Source: Sipunculus nudus
Lineage: Eukaryota > Annelida > Sipuncula > Golfingiida > Sipunculidae
Assembly (NCBI GenBank): GCA_026874595.1
Contig: CM049311.1
Location: 76,396,453-76,460,452 of the forward strand
Length of the DNA: 64,000 bases
Reading direction: 5' to 3'
A program made the position numbers and the translations under genes. Of this stretch, positions 662 to 53,165 are shown piece by piece. The stretch's first letter is position 1; each line of letters opens with the position of its first letter. Below the pieces are notes generated by a model that was given only the letters and a program-made list of their open reading frames with translations, searched no databases and was not told the DNA's origin.

Positions 662-2425
662 AACTAGAATACGGGTAGTCGACAAGCTACTACGTGTATC
701 CGCCTAAATCAGAGTGGAATGGGTGAAGTGAGGCATGGATTGAGTTGCAAGGGAAAATTGAGTGTTGCATATTAGCATGGATGTCTGCAGCCAAATTGTC
801 TATGTAGGTTGCCCCCCATACCACAAAATCCAGAAAGCTGTCCAAGTTGTATACATATGCAAAATTTAAGGCAGATAAGTCAAACCACTACATGTATATG
901 AGTGATTTTAGCCCGTGGCAGACAAACAGATGGACGCTGAGCAAAAATGGTTGCAGGTGACGCCACCAGTTTTGCGTATGATAAAGAGCTATGTGAGAAC
1001 TATACACATGCAAAACTTTGGCCCAATCAGTGAAACAGTTCCCAAGATATGAGCTTGGATGTCTGCTGCATAAACTAGAATGCAGGTGGCACCACCTGTC
1101 ATAAAATCAAGAGAGCTGTCGGGGATGTATAAACCTGCAAAATTTTAGGCAGATATGTCAAAACACTGCCCAGATATGAGTGATTTTATCCCATGGCAGA
1201 CAAACAGACAGGAGCTGTGCAAAAATAGCTGCAGGTGGCGCCACCAGTTTTTGTGTACGTTATAAAGCTCTCCAAGGGCTACATTTGTGCAAAAAAAATT
1301 TTCCTGATCGATCAAACGGTTCCCGAGATATGAGCTTGGATGTCTGCAGCGTAAACGTGAATGTAGGTGGCGCCACTTGTCATAAAATCAGAAAAGCTAT
1401 CCAGGATGTGTACGCATGCCAAATTTCAGGTGAATTAGTCAAGTCACTGCAGAGATATGAGTGATTTTAACCCAAGGCAGACGAACAGATTGACACTGTG
1501 CAAACATGGTTGCAGGTGGTGCCACCATTTTTTGTGTATGTTATAAAGCTCTCCAAGGGCTACATTTGTCGAAAAAATTTTCCTGATCGGTCAAATGGTT
1601 CCCGAGATATGAGCTTGGATGTCTGCAGCGTAAACGTGAATGTAGGTGGCGCCACCTGTCATAAAATCAGAAAAGCTATCCAGGATGTGTATGCATGCCG
1701 AATTTCAGGTGAATTAGTCAAGTCACTGCAGAGATATGAGTGATTTTAACCCAAGGCAGATGAACAGATGGACACTGTGCAAACATGGTTGCAGGTGGCG
1801 CCACCATTTTTTGTGTATGTTATAAAGCTCTCCAAGGGCTACATTTGTGCAAAAAAAATTTCCTGATCGGTCAAAAGGTTCCCGAGATATGAGCTTGGAT
1901 GTCTGCAGCGTAAACGTGAATGTAGGTGGCGCCACCTGTCATAAAATCAGAAAAGCTATCCAGGATGTTTATGCATGCCGAATTTCAGGTGAATTAGTCT
2001 AGTCATTGCAGAGATATGAGTGATTTTAACCCAAGGCAGACGAACAGATGGACACTGTGCAAACATGGTTGCAGGTGGGGCCACCATTTTTTGTGTATGT
2101 TATAAAGCTCTCCAAGGGCTACATTTGTGTAAAAAAATTTTCCTGATTGGTCAAACGGTTCCCGAGATATGTGGGTTTATGTGTGGAAACAGACGCACAA
2201 ACGGACGCAGAGCGCAGAGGAAAGGTCAGAGGTCAAAACAAAATTGGGGCGCAGCAGTTCACATGTGACCCGAACATAATCCCGGGTTTCGTAAAATTCC
2301 GCCCAGCGGTTACGGAGGAGTTCTCCGGACACCTACGCCGCGGCCGCGGCGGCGGGGGCGGTGGCGGCGGCGGCGTGCAGCTGATAACATAGTATCCGCA
2401 AAACTCTGTTTTGGCGGATACAATT
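662..2425 (+). mobile_element. Family A element, full length, copy 1 (HINE/pearl-like)
   Basis: The 5' end AACTAGAATACGGGTAGTCG is followed by a hairpin (GTAGTCG...CTAC) and GTATCCGCC. The 3' end is a hairpin (ATCCGCAAAAC-TCT-GTTTTGGCGGAT) followed by ACAATT. The 3' arm GGCGGATAC is the inverse of the 5' GTATCCGCC. The core is a tandem array: GGTGGCGCCACC-bearing units of about 140 bases, paired into near-identical 282-base dimers from about 1350 to 2150. A GC-rich CGG tract (2336-2376) precedes the 3' hairpin. There are no coding domains. It is similar in plan to Helentron-derived non-autonomous elements. Confidence 0.75.
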
Positions 2426-2919
2426 AAATACTATAGGATGAACATGGGGACAGCATAGAGGCAACATCGTGCTAAAACTCAGGTGTTTTTTATATTAGGC
2501 TTATACATAATATAAATCAACAGGCCATTAACAACAAAATATACTGTGACTGCTCAATAGCGCCATATAGTATGGGTGACTGGTACCATTCTCTGTAATA
2601 TTTCTCTTACTTTTCAAAATGGATTGCCATGCATGACATGACATTTGTGATCTACATCTGGAATTTAATAAGTAAAACATACATAACATATTTATAGAAT
2701 AAACATTTCCTTCAGCTCTTTTTCTGCTTATAAATAGAACATGATGACCCAGATATTTGATGGTACATTGTGGTACCATACCTTTTTTTCTCTCTCTTAC
2801 ACAAAAATATAAACTTCTATTAGGTAACATCCTGCAGGAAGTACAAATAAAGTATAGGACAAAACCCCCTCATATATTTCCATTAAATCCTGCAACACAC
2901 CAATACAATAAACAAATAG

Positions 2920-3120
2920 AGTGAAACCTGTGTTATCAGGCCACTTGTGGGACTGGCCAAAAGTGGTGGTCTTAATAGAAGGGTCAGTAATAATCAATAT
3001 TACAGCATTAGGTTCACTGAAGGGTACTCTTTATAGACTGGTGGTCCCAATAGACAGGTGGTTTAATAGTATTTATATCAATGTTCTGATCTTGATCTGG
3101 TCAGATTCTTGGTATAGGAC
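2920..3120 (+). repeat. Family I dispersed repeat, copy 1
   Basis: Starts GTGAAACCTGTGTTATCAGG and alternates AAAAGTGGTGGTCTTAATAG-like and AGACTGGTGGTCCCAATAGA-like words. The same pattern follows the DIRS right ITR at 45963. From memory, repeats of this kind are widespread in marine invertebrates; origin unknown. Confidence 0.5.
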
Positions 3121-3514
3121 CAAATCCCAAACAACCACATCCCTGATCATTATTCAGTCAGCCAAAATCAAACTTTAAAACTTTAAATCCCTCTTTGTAC
3201 CTCACTTTTGTAATAAAGAAGATGACTTAAGGTTGAGTCAATTAAAATTTAGGACTATGAGGATAATGACTGAATAAACTCCTGATTCAACTTAGAACTG
3301 TACAAAGTAAAGACAATAATTTTATGTCATAGGATCAATGTTAAAATGTTTTTTAAATATATCTTCCTGTATCAGATGCTGAGAAACAGCAAAACAAGAG
3401 CTTCATACCCGGACCAGATGATTGTACATGTTAATAGGATAAGTTTGATAAGTGATTTAGTTGAATCCAAAAGTGACAAAGGGTGAGAGCAATACTGAAT
3501 ATGAATGAAATGTG

Positions 3515-3519
3515 AGTAT

Positions 3520-3576: not shown

Positions 3577-4790
3577 TCAAGGCCCAAATCTCAATTGGTC
3601 CAGTCCGGCCTAAACTCTGATCAGGATTTGGGCTGGGCAAGGGTTGGACCAGATCCTGATCAGGATTTAGGCCAGACTGAATCCCTATCAGAATTTGGTC
3701 TGGGCCAATCATTGATTGGTCTTGACCAATTCCTCCACTGGTCAAGACCAAATCACAATCAGGATTCTGGCCAGTCCAAACCCTGATCAGGATCTGGTCC
3801 AGCGCAAATCCTGATTCAGTCTGTGAATTGACATAATACTAAACAATGCCTTCAGCACATATTTCTTATCAAATTAAGGAAAATTTATCTTATTTCAGCC
3901 TATTCATAAACTTAAACCTAATTTCATCATGACCAAATTTTATAAATGCCATGCCAAACACCAAATGCATAGAGCTAGTTGAACAAGTTACTGAAACCTA
4001 ACATAAATTAATAATTGGAATAAAGAAAACAACTGAATTTTGTGGCAGATCTTATACTTTATAAACATTCTAAATATGTTAAACTTGATGAATTACACTT
4101 TTCTGGCTTGTATTTCCTGTAGACATGCATCATGTATGTATGAATCAAAATAATTTAATACTGTATCTAAAACTAGAATAGAGGTATTCGACAAGCTACT
4201 AAGTGTATCCTGCGAAATCAGAGTAGGATGGGTGAAGTGAAGCATGGATTGAGTGGCATGGGGAAATAGAGTGAGATGTGTTACATTTTGCATGGATGTC
4301 TGCCACATCAGCAGCATGAATGTGAATTTAGGTGGTGCCACCTGTCATAAAATCAAGAAAGCTATCCAGAATGTATACACATGCCAAATTTCAGGTGAAT
4401 CAGTCAAATCAATGCAGAGATAAGAGTGATTTTAACCAATGGCAAATGAACAGATGGACACTGCCAAAAAAATGTTTAGTTAATTGTAGTTAATGTCTAG
4501 TTAATTGTATGATAAAATGCTACCAAAAAGCAGTTTTAATTTGGTTTAATGTGTATACACAGATGCACAGATGGCCTCACTGCATAGAGGAAAGGTCAGA
4601 GGTCATTATAACCTGGTGGATACAATAAACAAATGGGTAGCCATAATTAACCTTCAACTAATTAGGCAGGAAATCATTCTCTTTGTTATTAACTGAAGAT
4701 CGAGATTTAGGCCCGACTGAATCCCAATTGGTATCAGGTCTGAACCAATAAGAGATTGGGATCTGGGCTGTGAGGCCTGTGACATATAAA
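3571..4790 (+). mobile_element. Family G element, copy 1, interrupted by A copy 2
   Basis: The left end TATGTCAAGGCCCAAATCTC and the right end (GATCTGGGCTGTGAGGCCTG then TGACATATA) are mutually inverted. Both arms consist of degenerate alternations of GATCAGGATTTGG and TCCAGACCAAATCC-like words. The middle part (3815-4170 and 4627-4680) is AT-rich and shared with 60400-60590. A TA microsatellite abuts each end. A foldback or MITE-like element is the inference. Confidence 0.55.
4171..4626 (+). mobile_element. Family A element, copy 2, internally deleted
   Basis: Starts AACTAGAATAGAGGTATTCG with the same hairpin region as copy 1, keeps one GGTGGTGCCACC unit and about 100 bases after it, then jumps to the GAAAGGTCAGAGGTCA block and ends GGTGGATACAATA. 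It is inserted inside a family G element whose halves lie at 3571-4170 and 4627-4790. Confidence 0.7.
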
Positions 4791-6879: not shown

Positions 6880-8420
6880 TTTTTTAAGAGACCCGATCAC
6901 CTGAAAAGCATGTTAAATTAACATGTAAAATAGCTTCTTCCCCTTAAAATAAATCTGTACATTCCAAAATATTGCCTTGAAGCCATTTGCTTACTCCTGT
7001 AAACAAGTGTTAAAAAACAATGGACATGGCACGATCACAGGTGTCAACAAAAACACAGCGCATGGGACTCTGTGCATTGCCCAGCCACAACACGTGTCAT
7101 TCAGCAGATGCCCTGACCGACTTGGCCCAAACAATGTAATATATGTCCCCCCTGTGTCATGTGGCCTTGTTATGGTAAACAGACATACGTGGACTGTGTT
7201 TGCCAACATGCAGAGCCATAACAAGGTGATAACTAGAATATCAGCAGAAGCTGACAAAAGCCCTCAGCCAAAAGAACAGTGTTTAGAGGTGGTAACAGTA
7301 ACAAGTACTAAATATCTGTTCTCACATGGATGTATATCTGTACATGTCTCAGTTATAAATTTAAAATGGAGAGGTATGTACCATGATTTATAAAAATCCA
7401 CCAAGTGCTTCCTGGAAAATAAGCTTCTAAGTTTTATTCTATTATCAGCTCTGTGACCTTGAAAAGTAGGTCAAGGTCACCCATCTTCGAACTTGACAGA
7501 GATTTTGTCGATATACATCTTCACCAAAGAAATAAAATTCCTATTGTGAATCCTTTTAGAGATATCCCGCTCACAAGGCCAAAGTTGAAAAATCCAAGAA
7601 AAATTCATTAAAAATCAGAAATTGCAGGTGGCGCCCCCAAACTTGTGCAGCAGTTACAGACCATCAGTCCCTATGACCATAGTAAGTATTATGAAAATCC
7701 AGCCAATGGTTCCTGAGAAATAAGCTTCTAAATGTTTTTTCTATAATCAGCTCTAAAACGTAGAAAAATAGGTCAAGGTCACCCATCTTCGAACTTGACC
7801 GAGATTTTGTCAATATACATCTTCACCGAAAAAATAAAATTCCTATGGTGAATCCTTTTAGAGATATCCCGCTCACAAGCCCAAAGTTGAAAAATCCGAT
7901 AAAAATTCATTAAAAATCAGATATTGTAGGTGGCGCCACCAAACTTGTGTAGCAGGTACAGATAATCAGTCCCAATAATCATAGTAAGTTTTGTTAAAAT
8001 CCACCGAATGGTTCCTGAGTAATAAGCATCTAAGTGTTTTTCTATAATCAGCTCTAAAATGTAGAAAAATAGGTCAAGGTCACCCATCTTCGAACCTGAC
8101 AGAGATTTTGTCGATATACATCTTTACCGAGGAAATAAAATTCTGACGGTGAATCCTTTTCAAGATATCCCACTCACAAGGTAAAAGTTAACGGACGCCG
8201 GACGGACGGACGGACAGCTTGGGTGACGACAATAGCCCATCAGCCTAAGGGCTGAGGGCTAAAAAGCCGTATGTGAGGTACTGAGACAGTGCGTGCTCAG
8301 ATGTTTTCGGGGAAACTTTTGTAAAGCAAAACTGAAGTGACAGAGTGAAAGAATAGGCCTTATAATAATGTTCCTGATCATATCCCTTTTAATTATCAAC
8401 TCTGAATCAAAGGTAAAATA
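6880..8420 (+). mobile_element. Family J repeat, copy 1, interrupted by C copy 1
   Basis: The left part (6880-7230) shares TTGCTTACTCCTGTA, TGGCACGATCACAGGTGTCA and AAACAGACA...GTGGACTGTGTTTGC with 46180-46745. The right part (8265-8420) shares GGGGAAACTTTTGTAAAGCA and AAAACTGA with 46825-46850. The longest open stretch on the plus strand, 6977-7393, falls across this junction and is not a gene. Edges are approximate. Confidence 0.5.
7231..8264 (+). mobile_element. Family C element, copy 1
   Basis: Starts AACTAGAATATCAGCAGAAG with the hairpin TCAGC-AGAA-GCTGA, then AGCCCTCAGCC. Ends with the hairpin AGCCCATCAGCC-TAA-GGGCTGAGGGCT then AAAA; the arm is the inverse of AGCCCTCAGCC. The core has three units of about 300 bases with AGGTCAAGGTCACCCATCTT, TTTTAGAGATATCCCGCTCA and a GGTGGCGCCMCC box. 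A GGACGGACGGACGG tail lies before the end. It is inserted into family J. Confidence 0.75.
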
Positions 8421-11378: not shown

Positions 11379-11685
11379 AACTAGAAAGCTGCATTCTAAT
11401 GATTGCAATTAAGCCTCTGCCATTCACTTATTTGGCCCATATTCCCAGGTTAATTCATGCATAAGTAACTGTACATTTGTGAATATATTCCTTGACAATG
11501 TTCCAGGATCCAGATTATGTGACTGATCCAAACCAAAATGTAATTTATTCTTCAATAGCCCATTCCTAATATGTCCTGAAAATTTTATGAGATATCGTTT
11601 GTGAGTCAAATTGTGAAGGAAGAAACACACATACACAAACAAATGAATAGGAATGAATGCATACCCTCCAGGCCAGAGGCAATAA
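11379..11685 (+). mobile_element. Family N short element, copy 1
   Basis: Starts AACTAGAAAGCTGCATTCTA with a hairpin (TGCATTC...ATTGCA), then AAGCCTCTGCC. Ends GCATACCCTCCAGGCCAGAGGCAATAA with its last segment inverse to the 5' motif. It has the same plan as A, B and C but no tandem core; about 307 bases. Coordinates of the last base are approximate. Confidence 0.6.
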
Positions 11686-12149: not shown

Positions 12150-14957
12150 TATATATGTTAAGGCCCAGATCTGGATCTGGTGGTCCAGACCAGATTCTGA
12201 TTGGGATTCAGTCCATCCTTAATTCTGATCTTCAATTAATAACAAAGAAAATGACTTCCTGTCTAATCAGTTGAAGGATATGGCTACCGTAACCCCTGTT
12301 TTAGATCACAACTGTATCTACTTGCTAACCGCATGTTCACAGGACTCTTTTTAATGATCAAATCAATGTAAAAATTTTTGATATATATAAAAAAATGTTT
12401 TTTTTTAATTTTAGATGTAAGGGAGTGGGAGGTTCTTAGCTCTCAAAGCAGCGGAAATCTTGCGCTTCTAAAGAAGCTACTGATTTTCCCCCTGCCTGCT
12501 TTGACCGTTTATGATGCACTTAAACACCAGGTGGCCTCACTGCTGAAAAAAATTGCCTGCAGCCGAAATGTATATGTAGGTTGTGCTAGCTACCACTAAA
12601 TCCAGAAAGCTGTCCAAGTTGTATACATATGCAAATTTTTAGGTCAATAAGTCAAACCACTACATGTATATGAGTGATTTTATCCCACAGCAGACAAACA
12701 GAAGGACTTGTGCAAAAATCGTGGCAGGGGGTGCCACCAATTTTGTGTATGATTAAGAGCTATGTTAGATCTATACACATGCAAAATTTCAAGGGGGGGG
12801 TTTGTCCAACCAGTCCTGAGATATAAGCCTGAATGTCTGCAGCGTTAACATAAAAGTAGGCGGTGCCACTTGCCAAAAAAATCAAGAAAGCTATCGAAGA
12901 TGTATACAGTTTTAGGCAGATAAGTCAAACCACTACTGAGATATGAGTGATTTTAGCCCACGGCAGACAAACAGACGGACGCTATGCAAAAATGGTTGCA
13001 GATAGTCCCTCCAATTTGTGAGATCTGAACACATGCAAAATTTTGGCCCAATCGGTCAAACAGATTCCCAAGATATGAGCTTGGATGTCTGTAGCGTTAA
13101 CTAGAATGTAGGTGGCGCCACCTGTCACAAAATCAAGAAAGCTGTCCAGGATGTATAAACCTGCAAAATTTTAGGCAGATATGTCAAACCACTGCCCAGA
13201 TATGAGTGATTTTATCCCAAGGCAGACAAACAGACAGACACTGTGCAAAAATGGTTGCAGGTGGCGCCACCAGTTTTGCATATAATAAAGAGCTATGTGA
13301 GATCTATACATATGCAAAACTTTGGCCCAATCTGTCAAACAGTTCCCGAGATATGAGCTTAGATGTCTGCAGCATAAACTAAAATGTAGGTGGTGCCACC
13401 TGTCATAAAATCAAGAAAGATGTCCAGGATGTATAAACCTGCAAAATTTAGGCAGATAAGTCAAACCACTGCCAAGATATGAGTGATTTTGTCCCACGGC
13501 AGACAAACAGACCGACGCTGTGCAAAAATGATAGCAGGTGGCACTGTCAGTTTTGTGTATGATAAAGAGCTATGTGAGATCTATACACATGCAAATAGGA
13601 AGATCCGTCAAACCAGTCTGGAGATATAAGTATGGGTGTCTGCAGTCTGAACCTGAATGTAGGTGGCGCCACCTGTCATAAAATCAAGAAAGCCATCCAG
13701 GATGTATACGCATGCTGAATTTTAGGTGAATTAGTCAAACCACTGCAGAGATAAGAGTGATTTTAACCCAAGGCTGATGAACAGATGGACACTGTGCAAA
13801 CATGGTTGCAGGGGGCGCCACCATTTTTTGTGTATGTTATAAAGCTATCCAAGGGCTACATTTGTACAAAATATTTTTCCTGATCGGTCAAACGGTTCCT
13901 GAGATATGTGGGTTTATGTGTCGAAACAGATGCACAAATGGACACTTGGCAGAGAGGAAAGGTCAGAGGTCAACGCAAATTGGTTAGGCACCAGTTCACA
14001 TGTGACCTGATAATTGGTGTAAGTTTCGGAAAAATCAGTCAAATAGTCTCAGAGGAGTTCTCCTGAAAGGAATATGGCGGCGGCGGAACCCAGTCAAAAA
14101 CATAGTACAACTAAGTTGATACATTGGTCACATAGTTACAGAATTTAATTATTTTTATTCATACATAAATAATGCATGTAAGTAAATAAAGGCTATTAGA
14201 TGTGCAACACAAGTGAGTAATATTTTTTATTACATTAATTATTTCTGAACTAGTAGGCTGAAATAAGGTGAACTTTCCTATATAAACCAGAAGTATGTGA
14301 TGAAGGTGTTTTTAGTATTATGTCAACTCACAGTCTGAATCAGGATATAAGATGTGCCACAAAAGTAAGTAATATTTTTGTATTACATTAATTAATTCCT
14401 GTCAGATATTATCAGTCCTACTAATATTCATTGGTTCAACTATGTTTTTTAAGTTTGGCATGGGACAAAAATAAATGTTAAATAAATAAAAGTAAGTAAT
14501 ATTTTTATTACATTAATTAATTCATGTCAGATATTATCAGTCCTACTTATATTCATTGGTTCAACTAATTCTATGTTTTTAAAGTTTGGCATGGGATAAA
14601 AATAAATGTTTGTCATGACAAAATAAGATTTAAGTTTATGAGTAGGCTGAACTAAGGTGAATTTTCCTATATAAATCAGAAGTATGTGATGAAGGCTTTT
14701 TTTTGTATTATGTCAACTCACAGTCTGTATCAGGATTTGGGCTGGACCAGATCCTGATCAGGGATTGGACTGGTCAGAATCCTGATCAGAATTTGGTCCA
14801 GACCAAATCCTGATTAGGATTCAGTAAAGCCAAAACCCTGATTGGGATCTGGTCCACCTCTAGTCCAGCCCACATCCCAATCAGGGTTTAGGCTGGATCA
14901 GGATGTGGATTGGACTAATCGGTGATTGGTCCAGATCATGATTTAGGCCTTGACTTA
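12150..14957 (-). mobile_element. Family G element, copy 2 (inverted), interrupted by A copy 3
   Basis: Starts TATGTTAAGGCCCAGATCTG at 12150, includes CAATTAATAACAAAGAAAATG (inverse of 4685-4705), and after A copy 3 resumes with AT-rich sequence, ending GATTTAGGCCTTGACTTATA at 14957. Inside, about 126 bases are tandemly duplicated (14365-14490 and 14491-14615). The arm 14730-14945 is the degenerate GATCAGG/GGTCC word array. Confidence 0.5.
12555..14110 (+). mobile_element. Family A element, copy 3, both ends eroded
   Basis: At least ten tandem units with the GGTGGCGCCACC box (exact at 13111, 13260 and 13662; variants elsewhere), each followed by TGTCATAAAATCAAGAAAGC-like or GTTTTGTGTATGATAAAGAG-like half units. 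It ends with the GAAAGGTCAGAGGTCA block, GGCGGCGG and AAAACATAGTA, but the terminal hairpin is lost. It lies inside an inverted family G copy (12150-14957). Confidence 0.7.
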
Positions 14958-19906: not shown

Positions 19907-21108
19907 ACAAGTGACCCAGGGGTTATGACGCTCAGCTGACCAGGAAGACATTGACAAAAGTAATTTTATCATCTGAATGTCAAATTTGAATGAAATACTT
20001 TTTCCAAACTTGACCTTTTGTATAAAATCATCCAATATTCATTGGGGTACTATGGAGCTCTGTAGCATGAAGGATATGGGTAACAGACACCTATTTTCAA
20101 GGTTTACAAGATGACTTTTCAGGGGTCTCCCAGCATGTCAAAAAATAAAATTCTAGGTCCAGTTATTATGATTTGTGCCCTGTTAACAAATCCAAATGTT
20201 TATTCTGGGGGGTATTTCAAAGCCACATAGGATGAAGGATATGGGTAACAGAGATGCAATTTCAGGTGCACAAGGAGACTATTTTTTAGGGGCCTCCCAG
20301 CATATTAAGAAAGGAGATTCTAGGTCAAGTCATTATAATTTGTGCTCTGTTAACAGATGACCAAATCTTTATTCTGGGGAGTACTTCGGAGCCCCAGAGC
20401 ATGAAGGATATGGGTAACAGGGACCTTATTTCCGGTTTACATGTAGACCTTTTATGGGCTTCCCTCGAGGTGAGGACAGAAGATTCTAGGTCCAGTCATT
20501 ATGATTTGTGCCCTGTTAATATATGACCAAATCTTTATTCTGGGGGGTACTTCAGGGCCCCATAGCTCACAGAATATGGGTAACAGGGACCTTATTTCGG
20601 GTTTCCATGTAGACCTTTTATGGGCTTCCCTGGAGGTGAGGACAGACGATTCTAGGTCCAGTCATTATGATTTGTGCCCTGTTTACAGATGACCAAATGT
20701 TTAAAGATCACAAAAGTAGAGAAAAAAAAATCGTAAAAAATAAAAAAATATAGGTGGCGCCACCAATCTCCAGAAATTGATGAAACACTCCATGATCAAT
20801 ATCCATGCAAAGAATCATGGTGATTAATGCATAAGTTGTTCAGATACTTGAGCTTTTGTATTAAATTTTGCATTATTCTGGGGGGTACTTCAGAACCCCA
20901 TAGCTCGAAGAATATAGGTCACAGTGACCAAATTTAAGGTTTACATGGAGAATTTCCATAGACCTCCCAGGATTTCAAGTAAGAAGATTCCCGGTCTAGC
21001 GGTTACGATTTGTGCCCTGTTAACAGACAGACGCCTGGATGGCCGGACGGACGACGGACAAAAGGTGATCCCTACAGCCCAGATGACTTTCAGTCAGCTG
21101 GGCTAAAA
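19907..21108 (+). mobile_element. Family E element, copy 1, inserted in family D
   Basis: Starts ACAAGTGACCCAGGGGTTAT then GCTCAGCTGAC. Ends AGCCCAGATGACTTTCAGTC then AGCTGGGCTAAAA; GTCAGCTGGGC is the inverse of the 5' motif and forms the 3' hairpin. The core consists of units of about 170 bases with GGGGTACTTCGGAGCCC, ATGGGTAACAG and TTCTAGGTCCAGTCATTATG. A GACGGACGACGGAC tail precedes the end. It interrupts family D sequence that runs on unbroken at 55228. Confidence 0.65.
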
Positions 21109-35500: not shown

Positions 35501-35628
35501 AGAATTTGTATTTGTAGGTTCAAAGGTTTCAAAATGTGCCCTGTTAAGGTACAGATGGCCGGACGGACAAATGACGGACAAAGGACCATGACTAAAGCTC
35601 AGATGACTTATACGCAGCTGAGCTAAAA
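32550..35628 (+). mobile_element. Family E element, copy 2, interrupted by A copy 4
   Basis: Starts ACAAGGGACTCATAAGTCAT and ends CAGCTGAGCTAAAA. The left part (32550-34006) has two units of about 490 bases that share CTGCAGACAGCCTGA (near 33029 and 33539) and AATAAAGTTATATCC-like blocks; G runs lie at 32997-33009. The right part (35291-35628) matches 40650-40998. Family A copy 4 sits between them. Confidence 0.65.
34007..35290 (+). mobile_element. Family A element, copy 4, full length
   Basis: Starts AACTAGAATATGGGTAGTCT with the hairpin GTAGTCTACAAGCGACTAC and ends with the hairpin CCCCAAAACTCTGTTTTAGCG plus GATACAATT. The core of about 140-base units is more diverged than in copy 1. It interrupts family E copy 2; E sequence resumes at 35291. 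Confidence 0.75.
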
Positions 35629-35839: not shown

Positions 35840-36395
35840 AAAAATTATACCGTAAATCCACTTTTTATGGCCACATGTCTATTTATAGCCAAGCCCTGTG
35901 TTTGCAAGGTCCTTTCAAGTTGCTCCCACCAAGGTCCAAGCACACATTTTAGAACTCCCTTAAAGGTGCCCATTTACCTACATTTTGAAAAAGAAATTTA
36001 TATGATTTCTGGCTTCCACTCTGAATATATTAATCATCTAAGAGTAATCTTGGTTATGAAAAGTTCTTATAAGGCCTATGTGAAGGAAGTATGAACTTGT
36101 TTATCAACAGCATGTTTGTAAACACAGCAATGTTGACAAAACAGGAAAACCATGTAATCCAAGGTGGAAGGTTGCATATATGTGGAGTTAGAAAAGTCAC
36201 TTGTTGCAAAATGCCATTTGTTTATCTGACTTGCTGCCAGATACCCTTGTTGAATTTGTTTTGATTATATTTGCGGGCCCCCGCACATTATAATCATGTT
36301 GATAATAACAAAACAAGCAGCCTGTATGCAATGTTATCCATGTTTTCTGGCCTATTTTTATAAAAGTGCCAAGGGATAACCTTTAGTTTAAAAAG
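35840..36395 (+). mobile_element. Family K repeat, copy 1
   Basis: Contains AAGAAATTTATATGATTTCTGG, AGTTCTTATAAGG, GAACTTGTTTATCAACAGCA, TTGCAAAATGCCATTTG, GACTTGCTGCCAGAT and CCATGTTTTCTGGCCTATTT in the same order as 59260-59910. Function unknown; no terminal repeats recognised. Confidence 0.5.
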
Positions 36396-36404
36396 GTCAG
36401 ATAG

Positions 36405-37325: not shown

Positions 37326-40300
37326 AAATAGACATTTCTTGGCACCGTAGGTGCCATAGTATCCCCAGATAATTAATCCCCATCCTTTAAGAATAGGCCC
37401 CCCATCTTCAGCAGCATATACTGACACTTGGCTATTGACCATGGTTTCTTCCATCTATCAACTTGAGAAACAAAATTTTTTCACCAAATATGGGGGCCAA
37501 TGTGGTGAATCACTCTTAAGAAAAGGGGATTGATTTATACTATTAAAAAGGTAGGTATGTGGTGCCACCTGTCCAGTTGATTAGAAAACTCTTCAAGAAG
37601 GATGTACATGCCAAAATGGCAGACCAACACATTGAATGATTCCTCAGATATGAGCAATTTTCACCCAAAGCAAACGTATGAATGGACGCCACAAAAAAAA
37701 ACTATTGCGTATGGCACCACCAGTCTTCAATATGAGATGAAGAAATCCAAGATCTAAAGAAAAGCACAATTTTAGGCCGATAAGGCAAATCATTCCTGAG
37801 AAAAGGGCATTTATTAATACTATGAAAACGGTAAGATAGGTGCCCCACCTGTCTGCTTGATGAGAAAACTCTCCAAGCTGGATGTACATGCCAAATTTCA
37901 GACCAACACATTGAATGACTCCTGAGATATATGCAATTTTCACCTAAAGCAAATGTACAGATGGAGGCCACACAAAAACTATTGCAGATGGCACCACCAG
38001 TCTTGAATATGAGATAGAGGTATCCAAGATCTATGGACAACACCTTTTCAGGCCAATCTGTCCATTAACTTTTGACATATTATGCTCACAGTACTGTCAA
38101 GTGGCAATGATGGAGTATTAGAAGGCGTGAAAACAAGAAAAGGACAGAATGTGGAGCCACCTGTCTTCCACAGAAGACAAAGCTATCAAAGATCTTCAGT
38201 CATTTTGATTTTTGGACCAATCCATGCATCCCTTATTGAGATATTTATGATTTTGGGTGATTTTCACCAAATAAAGCAATATTCAAGGTCAAGGTCACTC
38301 TCATGGAAATGGTCATGACCCAAATTTAAATATAAATTATCCAATAACTCATACCAATATATATATGCATAATATGAAAGAAATCTATCCTCTTGTTTTT
38401 TATTTATAATGCTCATAGTACAGTCAAGTGGCATTGATGGGGTATAAAACGGCACAAAAACAAGACAAGGGATCCATGGGTCACAGCGCTCAGCTGTTAT
38501 ATATGATAAAAAAATATGATTTTGAAATGAGGCACATGCTGGTTTTGTGTGGAAATAAATATAAGCTGTATTATGAGTTGTTGGTGTTTAGCTTATGTAT
38601 GATTTTGATAGTTTTGTGTGGAAATAAATATAAGCTGTATTATGAGTTGTTGGTGTTTAGCTTATGTATGATTTTGATAGTTTCTTTGGAGACAGGGAAG
38701 AGATTGATTTCATTTATTTTATTAAAATAATGGAGTGCTATTGTCATATAGATTTGACTTGGCCATATAACTGATATGCAGCACATATAAGATACGAGTT
38801 TAACTATTTATTAAAATTTCATAACAAATATTGTGCCAAATAGAATTTTTATTAAAAATTATAAGAGAATCAAATGATTTTTTTAATAAAATATATATTT
38901 GAAATGATAAGTAAAATAATATTATAGAATATATTCATGAATGCATTCATGAATACATTTTTGAAGTATTTGCACTGGTATTGAAATACTTTCATTTTTA
39001 CCTGAATTCCCATTCTTATGCAAGAAATTTTATAATGGAGTACATTTTCATATTCGTATTCAAATACATTTGTAAAGTATTCGCACCATGTCTGGTATTT
39101 ATTCAGTTTTAGCCAAACAATGATGTTGAGAATCCAGAATATAAACAAAGGACCATGGGTCACAGGGCCTAGCTTAAGTTTGAAATTTTTGCAAATGCAA
39201 AATATGAAAAATATTCTATTGTAATGTTTTTCATTTATATAAGCATATGAGAAGCTAAGAGAAAGAGGCCCTCTACTTGGTTAAAGTAAAGTTCTAAATA
39301 TATGATTGCAAACTAATACTCTGACAAGACTGTCATGAAGAAAAACAGTAAAAGTTTTGAGATACTGTGATGCATATGAAAAATTTACAGATGGACAGAA
39401 TGGACAAATACCTTTATTTCACTTTCAAGGGAATAATGCATTTAAGTTTATAAATAAGCCTATTTTTTTAGCATACCCACTTTTTCCATTAATAGTTTTT
39501 ATCCGATTCATTTTTTTTTATTTACAAGTGTTATAAATTTGTAATAAAAAAACTGAAAATATTAGTTAAAATATTAGAATTCTGAGTTGCAATCATTCTA
39601 TCCAGATTGTAGCTCATATTGGGTCATATTATGCATACACATATATTTATTATTTTTAAATCAAATGATTAAACTGAATTTAAAAGAAAATAATGCCACA
39701 ACATGGCATCTATAAAATTATTCCTTGAATCCCTATTAAAAAGTTTTGCACATTGGAGTTTTCAGTACATGCTTAATTTTATTCACCAAAATAAAATAAA
39801 AGATTCAGTTAATTTGATAAAATAAAAGCATCTTTTCAATAAAATATACACACTGTTGGTTGAATGAGGGACAAACACATTATGCTAATTACAATCTCAG
39901 CTATAATTAATTACTGGAACAAATAGTCAATTTCACACCTGGAGAAGTTTTACTCTTCTGAAGTAAAGCATTACTCATCTGATGAACATCCACACTTTCA
40001 TAGCAATACATCACTTTGTGGACACAATTAATTAAGCACTTAAATCATGTAACCCTGATGGTACAATACAAAATCTAAAATGTAGCATAGCCAAGAATAA
40101 AATAAAATACAGAAACATTCATCTAGTTTATGCACCAGCTTGGGGGGGGGGGGGGAGGGTGAGTGCAGGGCAGAGGGGAAGCCTGCTAGTAGTGGCCAAG
40201 CTGAGCCAAGGCAAGCTGCCTGGGGTGGGTTAAATAATGCAAGTGAAGGCTGTACTACTAGGTGGGCTGGATGTAAACAACACTTGACATGGTGTATGAA

Positions 40301-41339
40301 AACTTGAATAAAAGCTACTCTTTTCAAATAATTCCTTTGAAATTTCAGATTTTAAAAGATTAAATCCTTATGTATATATGCTGTGAAAATTAAATCAACA
40401 GTGCTTGCAAGGAAAAAACGTGCCACTGCCAAAGTTGGACAAAATTTAAGGTATTGATTTTTTATTTAGGCTAATAACTTGAAAATTTGCAAAATTTAGA
40501 TCTAATTTTGGGTAAACAATTGAATCTTGATTAAATAAAGTTATATTCCTGAAAAAAGCAATTCTCATGTAAAGTGAGCAAATATATTTCCTGATTTTAA
40601 AAAAATTGCATTATATTTGGGCCCATAACTTTAAAATAATACCCAATGCTGACCTAATTTTTTGTATGTGCACAGAAAATGTATGGAAGAATATAAATAC
40701 TAAATATGATCAAAAACAGATCAGTGGTTTTGATTTTAGGCAGCCTTGAAGTGTAACAATGGCTTTTTTATGGAAAACAGAGGTTTTTCCTTAATATCTC
40801 AAAGGAACAAAGTCCTAATGACCCAATTTTCGGTATGTTAGGAGATTTTGGGGACATCTAATGGTATGCAGAATTTTGGATTCGTAGGTCCAACGGTTTT
40901 GAAACGTGCCCTGTTAACAGACAGACAGCCAGACAGACAGATGATGGACAAAGGACCACGACTATAGCTCAGATGACTTATAGTCAGCTGAGCTAAAATG
41001 GATAATAGTTGGTGCCACCATTTTCCAGTACATGACAACACTATCCAAGTCTTCAGTCAACTTGATTTTTGAATCAATTCATGCAATATTTCTCAAGATA
41101 TTTAAGACTTTGTGTGATTTTCTCCAAAAATGGACCAATCCAGGTCAAGGTCAGTCTCCTTGTAAAGGTAATGACCCCGTTTTAAATAGGCTTTGTCCTC
41201 TCACCCATATTTATGACATATCAAGTTAGGTAAAGATCCGTGAAATATATTTTTAGTTATCTTGCCTGAAAGAAATCTCTGTGGTGGCGGTGCAATTGTG
41301 CCTAAACCATGGTATCCCAACTAGTCTGGGGATGCAATT
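37326..41339 (+). mobile_element. Family B element, copy 2, split by a family E insertion
   Basis: The 5' end ATAGACATTTCTTGGCACCG with its hairpin lies at 37326; the 3' end (ACCATGGTATCCC...GTCTGGGGATGCAATTA) finishes at 41339. B sequence stops at GGCACAAAAACAAG (about 38464) and resumes at about 40999 with ATAGTTGGTGCCACCA, the same join that is continuous in B copy 1 near 31650. The inserted piece is family E. The right end lies 130 bases from FBXO3 exon 2. Confidence 0.7.
38465..40998 (+). mobile_element. Family E insertion in B copy 2, composite
   Basis: The first 5' end (ACAAGGGATCCATGGGTCAC, then GCTCAGCTG) is at 38465; a second 5' end (ACAAAGGACCATGGGTCAC) is at 39145; a single 3' end (GTCAGCTGAGCTAAAA) closes at 40998. 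This is best read as one E copy inside another. A perfect 70-base tandem duplication lies at 38541-38681, and a run of about 16 G lies near 40142-40157. Confidence 0.6.
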
Positions 41340-41989: not shown

Positions 41990-43050
41990 AGCTAAATCCA
42001 TAAGGTAACAGGAAGCAAAGGGGTCAGATGATTTCCAATGACCCTGCTTCACTAAATCAGATAATGATCCCCAAACCATGACCATGAGAGACACAGTAAC
42101 AGCCCTGACATAATGGGCCTTCACTTGAAGGAACAACAGGGTAGAGGGGGCCACTGTATCATGAGCTACAATGATAGTCTCTTTCATCCAAAGAGAGATA
42201 GGCACAGAGCTAATCTCAAAGGATGTCGACTGATCCCAAGTTCAGGTCATCTGAATTAACAGAGATTTCCAAGAGCCTTGCAGAGTGGCCGTCGCACGAA
42301 GAGAGTAACAATGGCCCAAACAGGGCAATTAATCGCATTGTAGTTTTGTTTACCATGGAGCAAGGCAGGGATATGCCAGTAAGATATGGCTTCCGAAGAT
42401 AGTTGGCTCTTATGTCAGAATTCCGGAGCCAGATGGAACGATGTGGACGAGCCATCCAAGGCCATAAGGGTATTAGCAGGGTCTGCGAGAAGAGCATGTA
42501 GTTCGCTGGGGAGAACGTTGGTGCCATGGCAAGTATAAAGGCCATCTTGCGGTATTAATGCAAGAGGGACATCTTCTTAAGTGGCTCATATGGAGCAGCC
42601 TGAAGGTAAGCAAGAACCTGCAAAGAGGATGTGCTGGGCTTCTAGGTACCTGCCTGTAATTCTACTGACTTTGGAAATTAGAGGACAGCAATTTTTGAAG
42701 CAGCAAATGAGAGCCAAGGGGTCTCAACAGTGAAAAAAAGCACCACGCAATATCCCTCTCTAGAAAGAAAGAAACAGAAAGAACTCCACAAGTTCTTGAG
42801 CTGATGGATGTACGACATCAACGTCATAGTCTTTGGTCCATTTTATGAAAACAAGCCAGCAAGAGTCGTAGGCACAGTAAGCAGAAACTCTACACAGAGT
42901 GGCGATGACGCGAGCTCCCTCTTGCAAAGAGCCTGCCTGGTACAGGTGGTCAATGATAACAGACAAGCTTGCAGACAGGCCACATTCTGCAACCAGCGGA
43001 TTCAACCCTGATGTAAGACATTGGGCCACAATGGTAGATTCCAGGGACAA
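41990..43050 (-). pseudogene. DIRS tyrosine recombinase remnant
   Basis: The N-terminal part reads AYDSCWLVFIKWTKDYDVD then VHPSAQELVEFFLFLS, the SAM-like core-binding domain. The middle part is KMAFILAMA, then after a frameshift SELHALLADP, where the first catalytic Arg is expected but not evident. The C-terminal part reads VKAHYVRAV (the HxxR box) and GHWKSSDPFASCYLMDL (His/Trp and nucleophile Tyr). A tyrosine recombinase replaces the DDE integrase of LTR elements, so this confirms the DIRS class. Confidence 0.8.
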
Positions 43051-43490
43051 TCAATCAGGAGGTCCAGGAGAGGCCACCACAGTGTTCTCCTAGGAATCCT
43101 GAGTATCAGCGTTAACCGCGTCTCCCTGGAGGTGAGTACATGATCCAGAACCTGCTGAACCAGGCCCACAGGTGGGATTGCATATAAGAATTGACAATCC
43201 CACTTCAGATTGAATGCATTCTTCCCTATTGCTCTGCTGGCGGTGCCAGGAATATAAACCAAGGAAATTGTTGATTGCTCTCGGAACAAGTCTATCATTG
43301 GAGGACCCCAGATAAAAAAATAACTCCCAAGCTAACCACAGATGAAGATGCCACTCCACTGTAGCTGCATGATATAGCACTCTCGATTGTATTCCGGGCA
43401 TCTCAAATATGACAGGGCTTCATCTGCATGTTGAGAGATTGGCACATTTGAAATACCAGCTGTGCCCCTCTTAAGAGCAATCAGGAGCGG
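43000..43490 (-). pseudogene. DIRS methyltransferase-like segment remnant
   Basis: Minus-strand pieces MIDLFREQSTISLVYIPGT, NAFNLKWDCQFLYAIPPVGL and LLDLLIDCPWNLPLWPNVL match the region between RNase H and recombinase in DIRS elements (pattern P.(I/M)DLF......, DAF.L.W....Y.FPP..L, L..PW..LL.L....P..LP). This segment is annotated in the family as Dam-like methyltransferase, with unproven function. Confidence 0.7.
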
Positions 43491-43499
43491 GTGCCTCCC

Positions 43500-43990
43500 T
43501 GATGATCAATATATGTGACCGAGGTCATGTTGTCGCAATGGATAAGGATCGACATACCACATGGGGACCTGCAAGGTCAGGAAAATAGCTCTGGTCTCCA
43601 GGTTGTTGATGTGAAGTAATCTCTCGGTACAAGCCCAAAGGCCTGGGGGATGGTAATCTCCCAAGTGAGCACCCCAGCTGATGGGCAAAGCGTCCCTGTA
43701 AAATTTGACTGGATGGACATAGACAAGCGAGATGCCCTACATCAGAAACCAGGGTGATTTCCATGGAGTTAGTATCCTCTGCAATTCTTTGCAAGGAATT
43801 TGAACTGATCCTTCTTGTGTAGACTTTTGAAGATGATATTGGTGAAGCAGTTTTTGACTAAGCTGCATACCCTTCCTCCTGAAAGGTATGAAGTTGGCAG
43901 TCCAGTTCAGGTTGCCCATAAGCTCTGCTGCATTGCATGTGGACACATAGTGTTTGCTTATTATGCGGGACACTATAATCTCCTGATTTT
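43500..43990 (-). pseudogene. DIRS RNase H remnant
   Basis: The peptide ISWGAHLGDYHPPGLWACTE followed by HINNLETRAIFLTLQ matches the WGAHL...G.W...E...HIN.LE..A..L.L block of DIRS-type RNase H. An upstream frame contains LVSDVGHLA, equivalent to the first catalytic Asp block. Several frame changes separate the pieces. It follows the RT and precedes the methyltransferase-like segment. Confidence 0.8.
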
Positions 43991-44800
43991 CTCCGCTCAG
44001 GAGTCAGGAAGAGCAGCATATTCCAGAACTAGGTCTATCTGCATCCCGAGAAACTGTACTTGTCTGGACAGTTCCACACAGGATTTCTCCAAACTGAGCA
44101 GGCACCGGAGAAACTGAACTGTGCGGAGAACAAGCTTTCTTTGATGAAGTAGGACTGACCAGTCCTGATGATGGATGAGCCAGTCAGTGAGATACTGGAT
44201 CACTGAAATGCCCTGGGATATGAGGAGAAGAGCTACCATACCGACTTATTGTGAAAATATGCAAGGTGCCAGACACAGGCCGAACAGTAGGGCCTGGAAC
44301 TGGAATACACTGTCTCTTTATGCAAAACAAAGGAACGGTTGAGCTTTATGCAAAACAAAGGAACGGTTGAGACACTGGGTGAATGGGTACGTAAAAGTAA
44401 GTGTCTTTCAAAACTAGGGTGAAGGCCCAGTCTCCTTGTGTCACAATGAGTAGTACCAAGTTGACATCGGGAATACAAAACCGAGGGCTTCTACGCAGCA
44501 GTTTAGGACCTTTAGATTGATAATCGGCCGCCATTTGTTGTTTTCCTTCTTCACTAGAAAGTGGTGTGAGTAGAACCCTGGGGATTTGGAATCTGCTGAG
44601 CTCATTGCAAGTTTTTTGTGCATAACTGAAATTTCTTGATCTAATGCTGCCTGTCTCTCTGGGTCTGTAGGGCCGGGGATAAAGCAAGGCTCTGTTGTTA
44701 GAGGAGCTGTGGAGTAAAACTTATAAAAAGGCCAAGCCAAATAGTGTGCAAGAGCAACCTGTTGCAAGTTATATTTTGCAACCCCTCCAAAAACTACTGG
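43990..44800 (-). pseudogene. DIRS reverse transcriptase remnant
   Basis: Frames must be switched to follow the domain. In order: FLVKKENNKWRPIINLKVLN (motif with K.WRPI..LK.LN, near 44530), DWAFTLVLKDTYFYVPIHP (LDLKDAY equivalent, near 44400), FQALLFGLCLAPCIFSQ (near 44270), QYLTDWLIHHQ (YxDD equivalent with the first Asp replaced by Thr, near 44185), and RQVQFLGMQID (near 44060). This block order and the QYLDDWLI-type motif are typical of DIRS/PAT elements. It is inactive by substitution and frameshift. Confidence 0.85.
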
Positions 44801-44859
44801 AGCTATGCTCCTACCGGTCTGGCCTAAATCCTTACCCCCCCCCCCCCCCCCCCGGCAAA

Positions 44860-45660
44860 CTGTGAACTAGGGTTTCCGCCTGAAAAAAAAACTGCAGTTG
44901 GCGACCTTGAGAAGCCGATCTTGGAGCACGTGATTGAGTCGGATGCAGAGAGATAGTAAGCGACCTCTTAATGGCTTAGCGATCTAGAAGCTGTCCAGGA
45001 ACGACTGAGCTGAAGGGGTCAATCTAACTGCTTGAGCATCCCATTCAGCTTTGGTCACTGCCTGGGTGTACACATCTTTTATGTGGACCTCAAAGAGTGT
45101 ATTGCCATTTAATGGTAACTCCTGGACCTGGACGTGTAGTCTTGGTGTCTGACACTATAGCTGTCTGAGAGCCACCTGTCACCTGAGAAGGATTATACTC
45201 TCAATCAGGTGCCAGATTGTCAAGTTCAGCTCCTGAAAATTTGGGAGTAGGCACTTGATCAACATGGTCATGGTACTTTTGGTGGGCCTAAGTTCTGCAA
45301 CCCAAACAAGGGTAGGGGGAGCTAACATGAGTTTACCTGAATCTCTGGTCTTCTCTCTTTCTCTGTCTGGGACCCTTAAGATGTAGGAGACTTCTCAGCA
45401 GACCTGAACTTGTTAACCCCTCCCTGCTGACAAGAACTTGAAGCACTATCTTTCCTAGTGGTTGTAATAGGGGAAGAACTGTTCAAAAAGAAGGTCTCAT
45501 ATATGCGCCAGGTCTTTCCCAGGAGGGGCAGACCTGGCACAGGTATTTGCCATCCCCCCCCCCCCCCGATCCCCCCCCCCCTGCCTCCAGTGCCCTTAGG
45601 CATGGAGGACATCTGGTAGTCCAAGCTATGCAGTGGACAGGAACTACAAGACAAGGAGGG
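44860..45660 (-). pseudogene. DIRS gag-like remnant with poly-C tracts
   Basis: The region upstream of the RT should hold gag. Open pieces exist, for example NGNTLFEVHIKDVYTQAVTK near 45080, but no nucleocapsid zinc knuckle is visible, so this is positional inference. Long C runs at 44836-44853 and around 45557-45590 interrupt it and were probably added or expanded after insertion. Confidence 0.4.
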
Positions 45661-49784: not shown

Positions 49785-51115
49785 GATGGATTTAAGTAAT
49801 TTCTGGCCTACTCTTTGAACATATTAATGAACTCTAGGTAATTCCTGTTAACAAAAATTCTGACAATGTCTCTGTGACAGAGGTATGAGCTTGTTTATCT
49901 ACAAGTTGTAAGTCATTATTTAAAAAAGAACACAAGGGACCCATGGGTCACGTCAATCAGCTGTATTTTGGAAAATTTTAGCTAATGCAAAATACATATA
50001 TACTTATTTCTTTTGGTTTTTATATTTAAATTTATTAGCATTTGATAAGCTATAAGGAAAAGGCCAAGCTAAAATGAAACCCTGTAAATTACAGAATAAT
50101 TGACATGAGCCAAAGTATAATATTTAATAATCATTAATTTATCAACTGAAATAAAACACTGTAAAAAATTCAAATGAACATAAACAAAATTTAATAAGCA
50201 TGTTAAAACAAGCCAATTAGATATAAATCGCATTTGCACTGTGTAATTAATGAAACTTATGGCCTGAAACTATTTAATGATGCAATAAGGAAAAATGGGC
50301 CTAAGTGTTATAAATATGAAAGGATGTCATTTATATTATTTACATTTGGAAATGGAGTGCTATTATCACACAGGTTTTGACTTGGCCTGATGCCTGGAGT
50401 TTGCACCATTTTTGTCAGTTTTATCATATAAATTTTATCTGAGTATTAATTCAGTTTCAGTCAAACAAAATTGCTGAGAATCCAGGATATACAAATTTCA
50501 CAAATTTGAATAATGATTATAAGTACCTGGTTTAATGGCTTTAATTTATATTCACAAAAATAATACTATTATATTTACTCTGAATACCTTCATGTCAATC
50601 TACACACTAAACAAAGCAAGAGTCTTATGACAATATTAACATTATTTACATCATAATGAGAACTTATCTAAGATCTTATTTTTATCACATTTGAATATTT
50701 TTATTTTTTTTAAAGTATCAGAGAAAAATGAAAAGTAATCTCAACTATGAAACAAATACATGTGTAAAGTACCGTCCAGATGGATGACGGACAAAGGACC
50801 ATGACTATAGCTCAGATGACTTATATTCAGCTGAGCTAAAAATGTGTAACATTGCAGAGGTGGTTGGTTGCATATGTGCAGAAGTTGACAGGAAACCAGA
50901 TGCAAAATGCCCTTTGTAAAACTCTGATTTGTCTTACTTTCCACCAGATTTCATTGTTGAATATTTTTGGATTATTTTTGTGGTTAACCCACCTGTTATC
51001 AACAAGTAGATATGCCATGCGTAAACAAAATGAACAGTCTGAATGTGGCAGGCTCAGCATTTTCTGGCCTATTTTATAAAAGGTTCCAGAGATTATCTTT
51101 AGTTGAGACACAACA
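49785..51115 (+). mobile_element. Family K repeat, copy 2, interrupted by E copy 5
   Basis: The left part (49785-49931) has TTTCTGGCCTACTCTTTGAAC and GAGCTTGTTTATCTACAAG; the right part (50842-51115) has GGTTGCATATGTGCAGAAGT, GATGCAAAATGCCCTTTG and CAGCATTTTCTGGCCTATTT. Together they are colinear with the other K copies. Confidence 0.55.
49932..50841 (+). mobile_element. Family E element, copy 5, inserted in family K
   Basis: About 910 bases from ACAAGGGACCCATGGGTCAC (with the palindrome GACCCATGGGTC) and ATCAGCTG to GCTCAGATGACTTATATTC then AGCTGAGCTAAAAA. Family K sequence is interrupted exactly at its ends (TTTAAAAAAGAAC before, TGTGTAACATTGCAGAGGTGG after). It gives the cleanest view of the E termini. 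Confidence 0.72.
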
Positions 51116-51119
51116 AACT

Positions 51120-52260
51120 TAAGGTATCAGAATAGGCCCCTTAAGGATAGATCCATGGCCTGTTAGTTTCACTAGCTACTGAATGAAGGCCCCCATACAT
51201 TAAGAATGATATATCAGTAATAAGCTTTCTCTATTGCAGGTTTTACAAGCTGAGAATAACCTAAAAGTCAAAACCTGTCATTCAGACATCAGAGTGTAAC
51301 TCTAAGGTTCTATCAGGATTCAGTTTTGTAACTGAGGCAGTGGTGGGGTTTTGAACTAGGGACCTTACAGTCTCTTATAATCCAACACCTAAACCACTAT
51401 GATGCATCTTATCCCTTTTATCTTCTGATTCATGGCAGCTGCCAGATGAGCTTATTAAGCCTTATTTAAATAATCTTTACATGCCCCATCATGGCAAATA
51501 TCATTATTTTATCAATAACCCCTTTGCTACATTCTGCCTTAACCCAGACCAATATTCAACATTAACGTTTCACAAAAAAAAATCTGCCCTAGTACATGAA
51601 GCATGAATTCCAGGATACAATGACGTCATGCCATGCAAGGTTTCCTAGAAAGATGGCACTAACTGAACATTTAGGATGGTCATGAAAGTTGATCACTGTG
51701 TGAGTAATCATGGAGATACAATAATATTATAAGAGCTTATTGAATCTCAATGGATAATCTAGGGCAGCATTATCACAATGAAAATGGCTGTTTTTCCAAG
51801 ACACATTGCCACTGAAAACAAAAACTCCCAGGAACAATATTGGTTATGTATCCAACATTTCAGGTAACCATCTTGAAATGTTTTCTTTCAGCACTATCTT
51901 CTATGCAAGGTTTACTTCCCCACTTTTTACTTCTTTTTAAATTCTATTATATAACTGTAGTAAAATCTGTGACACATTAAAGATACAAAATGAACCACTG
52001 GGAGTCTGCTCTACATATCAATCTGTGGTAAAATTCTGTCAAAAAGAAAAGCTCCTGCATCATAATTCTTAAACATGAGCAGACTGGAGGTCACACTTAT
52101 ATAGATGTAAAAGCTAAAAGAATCTATATATTGGAAATCAATTCCCTATATGGTCAGGGGCATTGCATGTTGAGTCTAATGTTAACCTGATTAAACAAGA
52201 CTTCCTCCAGAGGGTTTCTTGTCTTCCATAGGGGGATATACAGGGGAATCTCTTTCCACA
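51120..52260. other. Low-copy intron sequence with one SINE head
   Basis: Besides the tRNA-like head there is a single TGACGTCA at 51621. No exon recognised. Confidence 0.4.
51335..51412 (-). mobile_element. tRNA-like SINE head with A and B boxes
   Basis: The minus strand reads TAGTGGTTTAGGTGTTGGA (A box, plus positions 51381-51399) and CTAGTTCAAAACCCC (B box, 51345-51357), with spacing as in a tRNA gene. It lacks a consistent acceptor stem, so it is scored as a tRNA-derived SINE and not a tRNA gene. Confidence 0.5.
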
Positions 52261-52265
52261 GAGTA

Positions 52266-53165
52266 AATTAGAATATGGGTAGTCGACAAGCGACTACGTG
52301 TATCCGTTGAAATCAGAGTGGGACGTGTGAAGTGATGCATAGATTGAGTGGCAAGGGGAAAAAGAGTGAGGTCTGTTGCATATTAGCATGGTTGTCTGCA
52401 GCCGAAATGTGTATGTAGGTTGCGCCACTTACCACAAAATCCAGAAAGCTGTCAAAGTTGTATACATATGCAAAAAGTCAAACCACTGCCGAGATATGAG
52501 TGATTTTATCCCACAGCAGACAAACAGATGGACACTGTGCAAAAATGATTGCAGGTGGTGCCACCAGTTTTGTGTATAATGAAGAGCTATTTGAGATCTA
52601 TACATATGTAAAATTTTGGCCCAATAGTTCCCAAGGTATGAGCTTGGATGTCTGCAGCGTAAACGTGAATGTAGGAGGCGCCACCTGTCATAAAATCAAG
52701 AAAGCTGTCCAGGATGTATACACATGCAAAATTTCAGGTGGATAAGTCCAACCAATGCTGAGATATGAGTGATTTTATCCCAAGACAGATGAACAGATGG
52801 ACCCTGTACAAAAATGGTTGCAGGTGGCACCACCGTTTTATATGTATGTTATAAAGCTATCCAAGTGGTACATTTGTACAAAATTTTTAGCCTGATCGGT
52901 CAAACGGTTCCCGAGATATGTGGGTTTATGTTTGGAAACAGACGCACAAATGGACGCTGGGCAGAGAGGAAAGGTCAGAGGTCAACCAAAAATGAGGGTG
53001 CAGCAGTTCACATGTGACTGGATCATAATTCGGAATTAAAAAAAATTCTGCCCAGTGGTTACGGAGGACTTCTCGTGAAACCTATGCGGCAGTGGCGGTC
53101 GCAGCGGCAGTGGCGTCTGACTGAAAACATAGTATCCACAAAACTCTGTTTTGGCGGGTACAATG
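52266..53165 (+). mobile_element. Family A element, copy 5
   Basis: Starts AATTAGAATATGGGTAGTCG with the perfect hairpin GTAGTCGACAAGCGACTAC and ends CAAAACTCTGTTTTGGCGGG then TACAAT. It has four to five core units with GGTGGYGCCACC variants. Related units without the A termini continue to 53510. Confidence 0.72.

Follow-up and report, generated by a model that had tools for sequence, protein, structure and literature searches.

What the short repeated elements of this locus are, and how they may have inserted, is the question raised by a 64,000-base stretch of the Sipunculus nudus genome (assembly GCA_026874595.1, contig CM049311.1, positions 76,396,453 to 76,460,452), referred to in full as the window. 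The elements occupy about one third of it, the masked pieces amounting to 20,857 of 64,000 bases, and fall into several families of short non-autonomous rolling-circle elements, named A, B, C, N, D, and E. Judged by their ends and by two empty sites, they are very probably non-autonomous Helitron-like elements of the Helentron-associated (HINE) or DINE-1 kind, lying on the minus strand and moved by a proposed rolling-circle insertion. The elements are real and well formed, but they are of an already known kind.

Read along the minus strand, the elements show the order TT, S5 (a subterminal inverted repeat, subTIR, of 9-14 bases), IR, repeats, S3, a small hairpin, and CTAG or CTTG. The IR is an imperfect inverse of S5 that lies 3-5 bases beyond it in A, B, C, D, and E and is missing in N, while S3 is a second inverse of S5, placed upstream of the small 3' hairpin. 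Ends were tabulated for 17 copies or ends. TT was found at all 15 readable 5' ends, and the TC of canonical Helitrons at none of them. CTAG was found at eight of the nine readable 3' ends of A, B, C, and N, the exception being copy A4 with CTAA; the 3' ends of D and E were CTTG, and an internal E end at 39146 was TTTG. S5 lies 2 bases from the 5' terminus and S3 22-32 bases from the 3' terminus (copies A1, B1, C1, C2, N1, N2, and D1), and this placement of one subTIR near the 5' terminus and the other internal to the 3' terminus is the one that defines HINEs and non-autonomous Helentrons. GTCC microsatellites follow the IR in both full copies of C.

The preliminary description had read the elements in the opposite direction, and its 5' end is the 3' end by the published HINE plan. 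The minus-strand polarity is favoured because the CTAG end has a hairpin before it. The terminal words quoted at the other end (ACAAT, CAATAA, and CTAAAA) extend past the likely boundary. The paired arms that it quoted are present in A (696/2413), B (30819/31989), and C (7259/8250 and 26842/28141). They also occur in N (11413/11672 and 26110/26409), with one difference in the right arms, and in E, exactly at 40984 and 50827 and with one difference at 38489. Of the two leading words on which it relied, ACAAGGGAC was above chance, with 3 matches against 0.30 expected and none of 100 shuffles reaching that number. AACTAGA alone was not: its 14 matches compare with a shuffle mean of 9.4, and its significance by itself was rejected as 8 of 100 shuffles reached the same count. 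Element ends account for eight of these 14 matches.

The copies and fragments, with positions counted within the window, are:

664 to 2423, minus strand: A1, full element with 5' end TTGTATCCGCC at 2423 and CTAG 3' end at 664; tandem repeats of a 280-base unit at 769-2171.
4173 to 4625, minus strand: A2, short, both ends present; no 5' hairpin visible within the first 50 bases.
34009 to 35288, minus strand: A3, nested in E2; empty site ambiguous by 6-8 bases.
52268 to 53163, minus strand: A4, with CTAA in place of CTAG at the 3' end.
12554 to 14110, minus strand: A5, A-type tandem repeats (12554-14066 matches A1); ends not clear and limits approximate.
30788 to 32002, minus strand: B1, full element nested in E1; S5 GTATCGCCAGAC, S3 GTCTGGCGATAC.
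38055 to 41337, minus strand: B2, split by E3 into 38055-38465 and 40997-41337; 5' end at 41337, 3' end looked for and not found.
7233 to 8262, minus strand: C1, full element with 302-base repeats; S5 AGCCCTCAGCC.
26816 to 28153, minus strand: C2, full element; S5, IR, and S3 identical to C1, flanks different; the longest matches with C1 show 92-94% likeness.
11381 to 11682, minus strand: N1, full element without 5' hairpin.
26082 to 26419, minus strand: N2, full element without 5' hairpin; 3' stem of 7 bases.
30648 to 32548, minus strand: E1, 3' portion of an E copy broken by B1; own 5' end not found.
32551 to 35626, minus strand: E2, E copy with both ends, holding A3.
38466 to 40996, minus strand: E3, unit within B2; a second E-type 3' end is internal at about 39146.
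49933 to 50839, minus strand: E4, short E-type copy retaining both ends; provides the empty site used for B1.
19908 to 21106, minus strand: D1, E-like, with 166-base repeats; S5 AGCCCAGCTGAC.
21107 to 23344, minus strand: further D-type repeats, with an additional E/D 5' end (D2) at 21624.

Empty sites were provided by three nestings inside the window: E3 in B, B1 in E, and A3 in E. The joined flanks of E3 matched an intact B copy at 54 of 60 bases and those of B1 matched E at 51 of 60, both with gapless junctions. The empty-site check that had been suggested earlier, run on these nestings, therefore found neither target duplication nor loss for E3 in B and B1 in E. A boundary scan over 289 boundary pairs, with the far flank ends held fixed, gave zero-net boundaries as the best of 289 for both E3 and B1, and the proposed boundaries were among them. 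For A3 in E, 48 of 60 bases matched and 8 bases were missing beside the junction. With B inside E and E inside B, the periods of activity of the two families overlapped.

The host base after the 3' end was T in 15 of 15 copies, of which 11 had this T as part of the search word; the remaining four (A4, E3, the 39146 end, and D1) carry it as well. The base preceding the 5' TT was A in all eight A, B, and N ends and T in all seven C, D, and E ends, a split with a probability of 0.00016 on the assumption of independent copies and arbitrary classes. The base is tied to the 5' end rather than to the 3' end, since C combines the CTAG of A, B, and N with the T before TT of D and E.

The agreement of S5 with S3 was assessed in a permutation test with one copy per family, chosen as least decayed (A1, B1, C1, N2, and E3). 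The true pairing scored 50 and ranked at the top of 120 permutations, followed by a runner-up at 44. Own S5/S3 scores were 10, 6, 6, and 4 in A1 to A4, 13 in B1, 11 in both C1 and C2, 7 in both N1 and N2, 6, 9, and 7 in E2, E3, and E4, and 8 in D1. In 2000 shuffles the 99th percentile was 7 and the highest score 10; six of the 13 two-ended copies lay above this percentile, three equalled it, and four lay below. The 128 comparisons between families averaged 4.8 with a maximum of 8. S5 and S3 are identical, as inverses, in A1, B1, and C1/C2. The arms thus pair better within than between families, as the preliminary description had it, but decayed copies fail to do so.

A hairpin holding the matching arm, also claimed there, was recovered at the 5' end (35 bases folded) in A1, B1, C1, D1, and E3, with z of -7.45, -6.03, -5.15, -5.30, and -5.37 respectively, and was not recovered in N. 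The small hairpin beside AACTAGA or ACAAGGGAC was modest. Across eight 3' ends (45 bases folded), z ranged from -2.83 to 1.73, with values of -2.05 to -2.83 in B1, C1, and N2 and -1.39 in E3, while A1, N1, E4, and D1 gave no support. The S5/IR stem was imperfect in all 11 tabulated hairpins, a table that omits B2 with its decayed hairpin and A2 without one. The three A stems have a one-base length difference, with additional mismatches in A3 and A4, and the two C stems, which are identical copies, have one as well. B1 is mismatched at position 6, and position 8 is mismatched in all five D/E stems, three of which carry additional differences. We infer that S5 and S3 are recognised as sequence and that the imperfect hairpin is a separate feature.

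Compensatory evolution of the ends had been proposed from these arms and is weakly supported: from family to family S5 and S3 change jointly, but the copies of any one family decay independently. The sole change seen on both sides is at hairpin position 4, T-A in E and C-G in D1, and the S3 of D1 retains the E letter without a matching change. The outer letters GTATC are common to A and B, which diverge further inward at both ends, the pattern expected of drift with agreement.

Under the proposed mechanism, a Rep-helicase encoded elsewhere would treat S5 and S3 as the same site present twice and, with the imperfect hairpin as a guide, would nick at the 5' end. One strand would be peeled off and copied, with a stop at the 3' hairpin and CTAG or CTTG, and the single strand would then enter the target at an A/T or T/T junction, the tandem repeats being carried as passengers. 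On this proposal every family depends on a partner that has a site of its own, which is why the families would differ and why S5 and S3 would have to agree.

Several results weigh against this reading. Equal shifts of the boundaries tie with the proposed ones (0 to -6 for B1; -1, 0, and +3 to +5 for E3), and the termini are therefore known to a few bases, their placement resting on the comparison of copies. E3 also has two tying net-1 solutions. A scan with moving flanks preferred shifted boundaries, with 75 against 66 for B1 and 59 against 43 for A3, and the A3 empty site was best at net 6-8, the proposed boundary ranking 138th of 289. N lacks a 5' hairpin (z of 0.35 in N1 and -0.05 in N2), and the 3' hairpins of A1, N1, E4, and D1 fold no better than shuffles. 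The naming of 5' and 3' is conventional where an open reading frame is lacking, as the authors of DINE-1 also state (PMC2374699). Finally, 40 of the 96 stop-to-stop frames of at least 75 amino acids were scanned against Pfam, and no Rep-helicase was found among them, with no curated cut-off reached.

Cut-and-paste miniature inverted-repeat transposable elements (MITEs) with imperfect terminal inverted repeats would likewise account for inverted motifs near both ends, a small size, and the lack of proteins in the frames scanned. They are a highly improbable source: in the seven copies measured, the inverted motif stands 2 bases from one terminus and 22-32 from the other, and the elements end in CTAG or CTTG. 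A cut-and-paste origin was rejected because the E3-in-B and B1-in-E empty sites carry no target duplication. The filing as Helentron-associated, HINE or pearl-like, is supported by the end anatomy together with these same two sites. Matching arms might also have arisen by descent or conversion of whole ends and not by selection for agreement of S5 with S3. This would fit the independent decay of copies within families, the identity of C1 and C2 in S5, IR, and S3, and the small number of families, but we consider it unlikely, since five families with different ends keep the agreement in their least decayed copies, while in each IR-bearing family the mismatch between IR and S5 falls at a common position.

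Two E loci (30648-35626 and 38466-40996) each have two 3' ends and one 5' end. These may be products of end bypass, but the additional stretch at 38466-39143 looks like an old E copy, and nesting followed by deletion fits equally.

Seventeen copies or fragments were counted (A1-A5, B1, B2, C1, C2, N1, N2, E1-E3, the internal E end at 39146, E4, and D1), and every one of them lies on the minus strand. An nhmmer run with 19 element pieces (E 0.01 or better) returned a single opposite-strand match, a weak one to the interior of N1 (17474-17350, 13.7 bits, E 0.0012). Matching pairs among the elements numbered 130 on the same strand and none on opposite strands. The excess of AAAA over TTTT was 0.575, giving orientation probabilities of 2.5e-5 for 17 copies and 3.3e-4 for the 13 two-ended ones, and is too small to explain the shared orientation. 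The finding is weakened in that it was noticed post hoc in one window, that neighbouring E fragments are perhaps not independent, and that plus-strand families unrelated to these could escape detection. A structure scan for further families recovered A1, B1, C1, and C2, all on the minus strand, among 37 plus-strand and 61 minus-strand clusters, where 20 shuffles gave 5 to 27 on each strand; because tandem arrays inflate both strands, the scan is evidence neither for nor against other plus-strand families. A hairpin followed by CTAGT was present at 2 of 29 plus-strand sites and 8 of 35 minus-strand sites. The shuffled sequences averaged about 3, with maxima of 8 and 10, so that the minus-strand eight, six of which are element ends, are not beyond shuffles. 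The wider CT[AT]GT scan gave 12 of 106 and 15 of 120 respectively, without clear asymmetry. Another dispersed repeat, not belonging to the elements described here, occurs at 35961-36399, 50858-51104, and 59255-59907 in one orientation throughout.

Two explanations of the shared orientation were weighed. Selection, through a unistrand cluster of PIWI-interacting RNAs (piRNAs) or a long intron keeping one orientation, is possible but rather unlikely. It would fit a count of 17 of 17 on one strand, and clusters whose transposons all or nearly all point one way have been reported from Aedes and Drosophila. Against it, the other repeats of the window are mixed, with 15 pairs on the same and six on opposite strands, and no gene was recognised within the frames scanned. 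By analogy with the lagging-strand-template insertion reported for bacterial IS200/IS605 elements, a single-stranded intermediate might enter the lagging-strand template, making insertion strand-specific over long chromosomal stretches, with every family of a replicon in one orientation and that orientation a record of fork direction in a eukaryote; this we regard as quite unlikely. A literature search gave no title reporting shared orientation for Helitrons. A shared orientation that held genome-wide would tie rolling-circle insertion in eukaryotes to replication, or would be a sign of selection of the kind seen in piRNA clusters.

The best Pfam matches below the cut-off were DUF5498 (E 0.00068, 29705-30001), zf-C2H2_6 (0.0055), and RVT_1 (0.011, 44000-44245). 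The last lies in one of a run of overlapping minus-strand frames at about 42219-44866, which are perhaps a broken retroelement. Rfam gave nothing at gathering scores, and an exact DNA-pattern search of prokaryote and viral contig collections gave no match, which says little for such elements.

Tandem-repeat monomers in the window measured 166 to 405 bases (Tandem Repeats Finder). Within two A monomers, at 1073-1079 and 13099-13105, an internal hairpin is followed by CTAG, like the 3' end. The palindrome GGTGGCGCCACC, allowing up to two mismatches, occurs at 50 places between 956 and 54959. Most of these lie within the tandem arrays of A, B, C, and D, the monomers of which are otherwise dissimilar. 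Control palindromes (n = 300) averaged 2.9 places, and their maximum of 50 is probably the same word redrawn. A literature search for its letters gave no transposon paper, as judged by title.

The co-residence of families with differing subTIRs, which the preliminary description had singled out as meriting study, is already in print for Crassostrea gigas, a mite, Fusarium, and Drosophila willistoni. One C. gigas genome holds 11 Cg_HINE elements, each with its own subTIR, IR, and stem (PMC7492417), the mite genome holds seven families with their own subTIRs, and D. willistoni has three DINE-1 subtypes that differ in subTIR. Compensatory change of the DINE-1 3' stem between species was proposed in 2008 (PMC2374699, PMC4067079), and work on Helraiser supports, for Helitrons, a circular intermediate and termination by the hairpin.

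Cg_HINE elements resemble those of the window in their 5' subTIR, complementary IR, microsatellite, satellite-like repeats, 3' subTIR, and 3' palindrome, and in T-rich targets without duplication; the GTCC microsatellite after the IR in C1 and C2 matches the position in several of them. They differ in that their monomers are mostly 140-180 bases, that A precedes the 5' TT in A, B, and N of the window, and that both orientations occur genome-wide in C. gigas, which weakens the orientation reading here (PMC7492417). Helitron-like sequences of C. gigas share the CTAG 3' end, the hairpin, and an A/T target in 86%, with subTIRs in 257 of 751 and a 5' IR in 33% of those, but start with TC and not TT; for sequences of mixed features, their authors suggest Helitron-Helentron intermediates (PMC7992393).

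DINE-1 has 13-base subTIRs, a partly complementary 5' IR, a 3' stem-loop, central repeats, and TT insertion (PMC2374699, PMC4067079), while its subTIR letters are different and CTAG is not mentioned in the available text of PMC2374699. Hel-2 of Lepidoptera shares the 5' IR, subterminal inverted repeats, 3' stem-loop, CTAG, A/T flanks, and a tetranucleotide microsatellite, but has a 5' TC and is a single family (PMC4344730). Proto-Helentron-Pi matches in its 5' TT, 3' CTAG, and A/T insertion without duplication, but is autonomous, about 14 kb long, and has a structure called more Helitron-like (PMC4067079). FoHeli1/2 of Fusarium oxysporum have S5 in a hairpin, subgroups with different arms, and an S3 lying 38-51 bases from the 3' end, but measure about 5-6 kb, start with TCAG or T[c/a]AG, and end with ATTTT (PMC5148889). 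The S3 distance in the window is somewhat below the 38-60 bases given for mites. The families described here thus add examples to a known pattern, in which the same site stands at both ends and Helitron-like and Helentron-like features are mixed, and the points worth carrying forward are the shared orientation and the split between A and T before the 5' TT.

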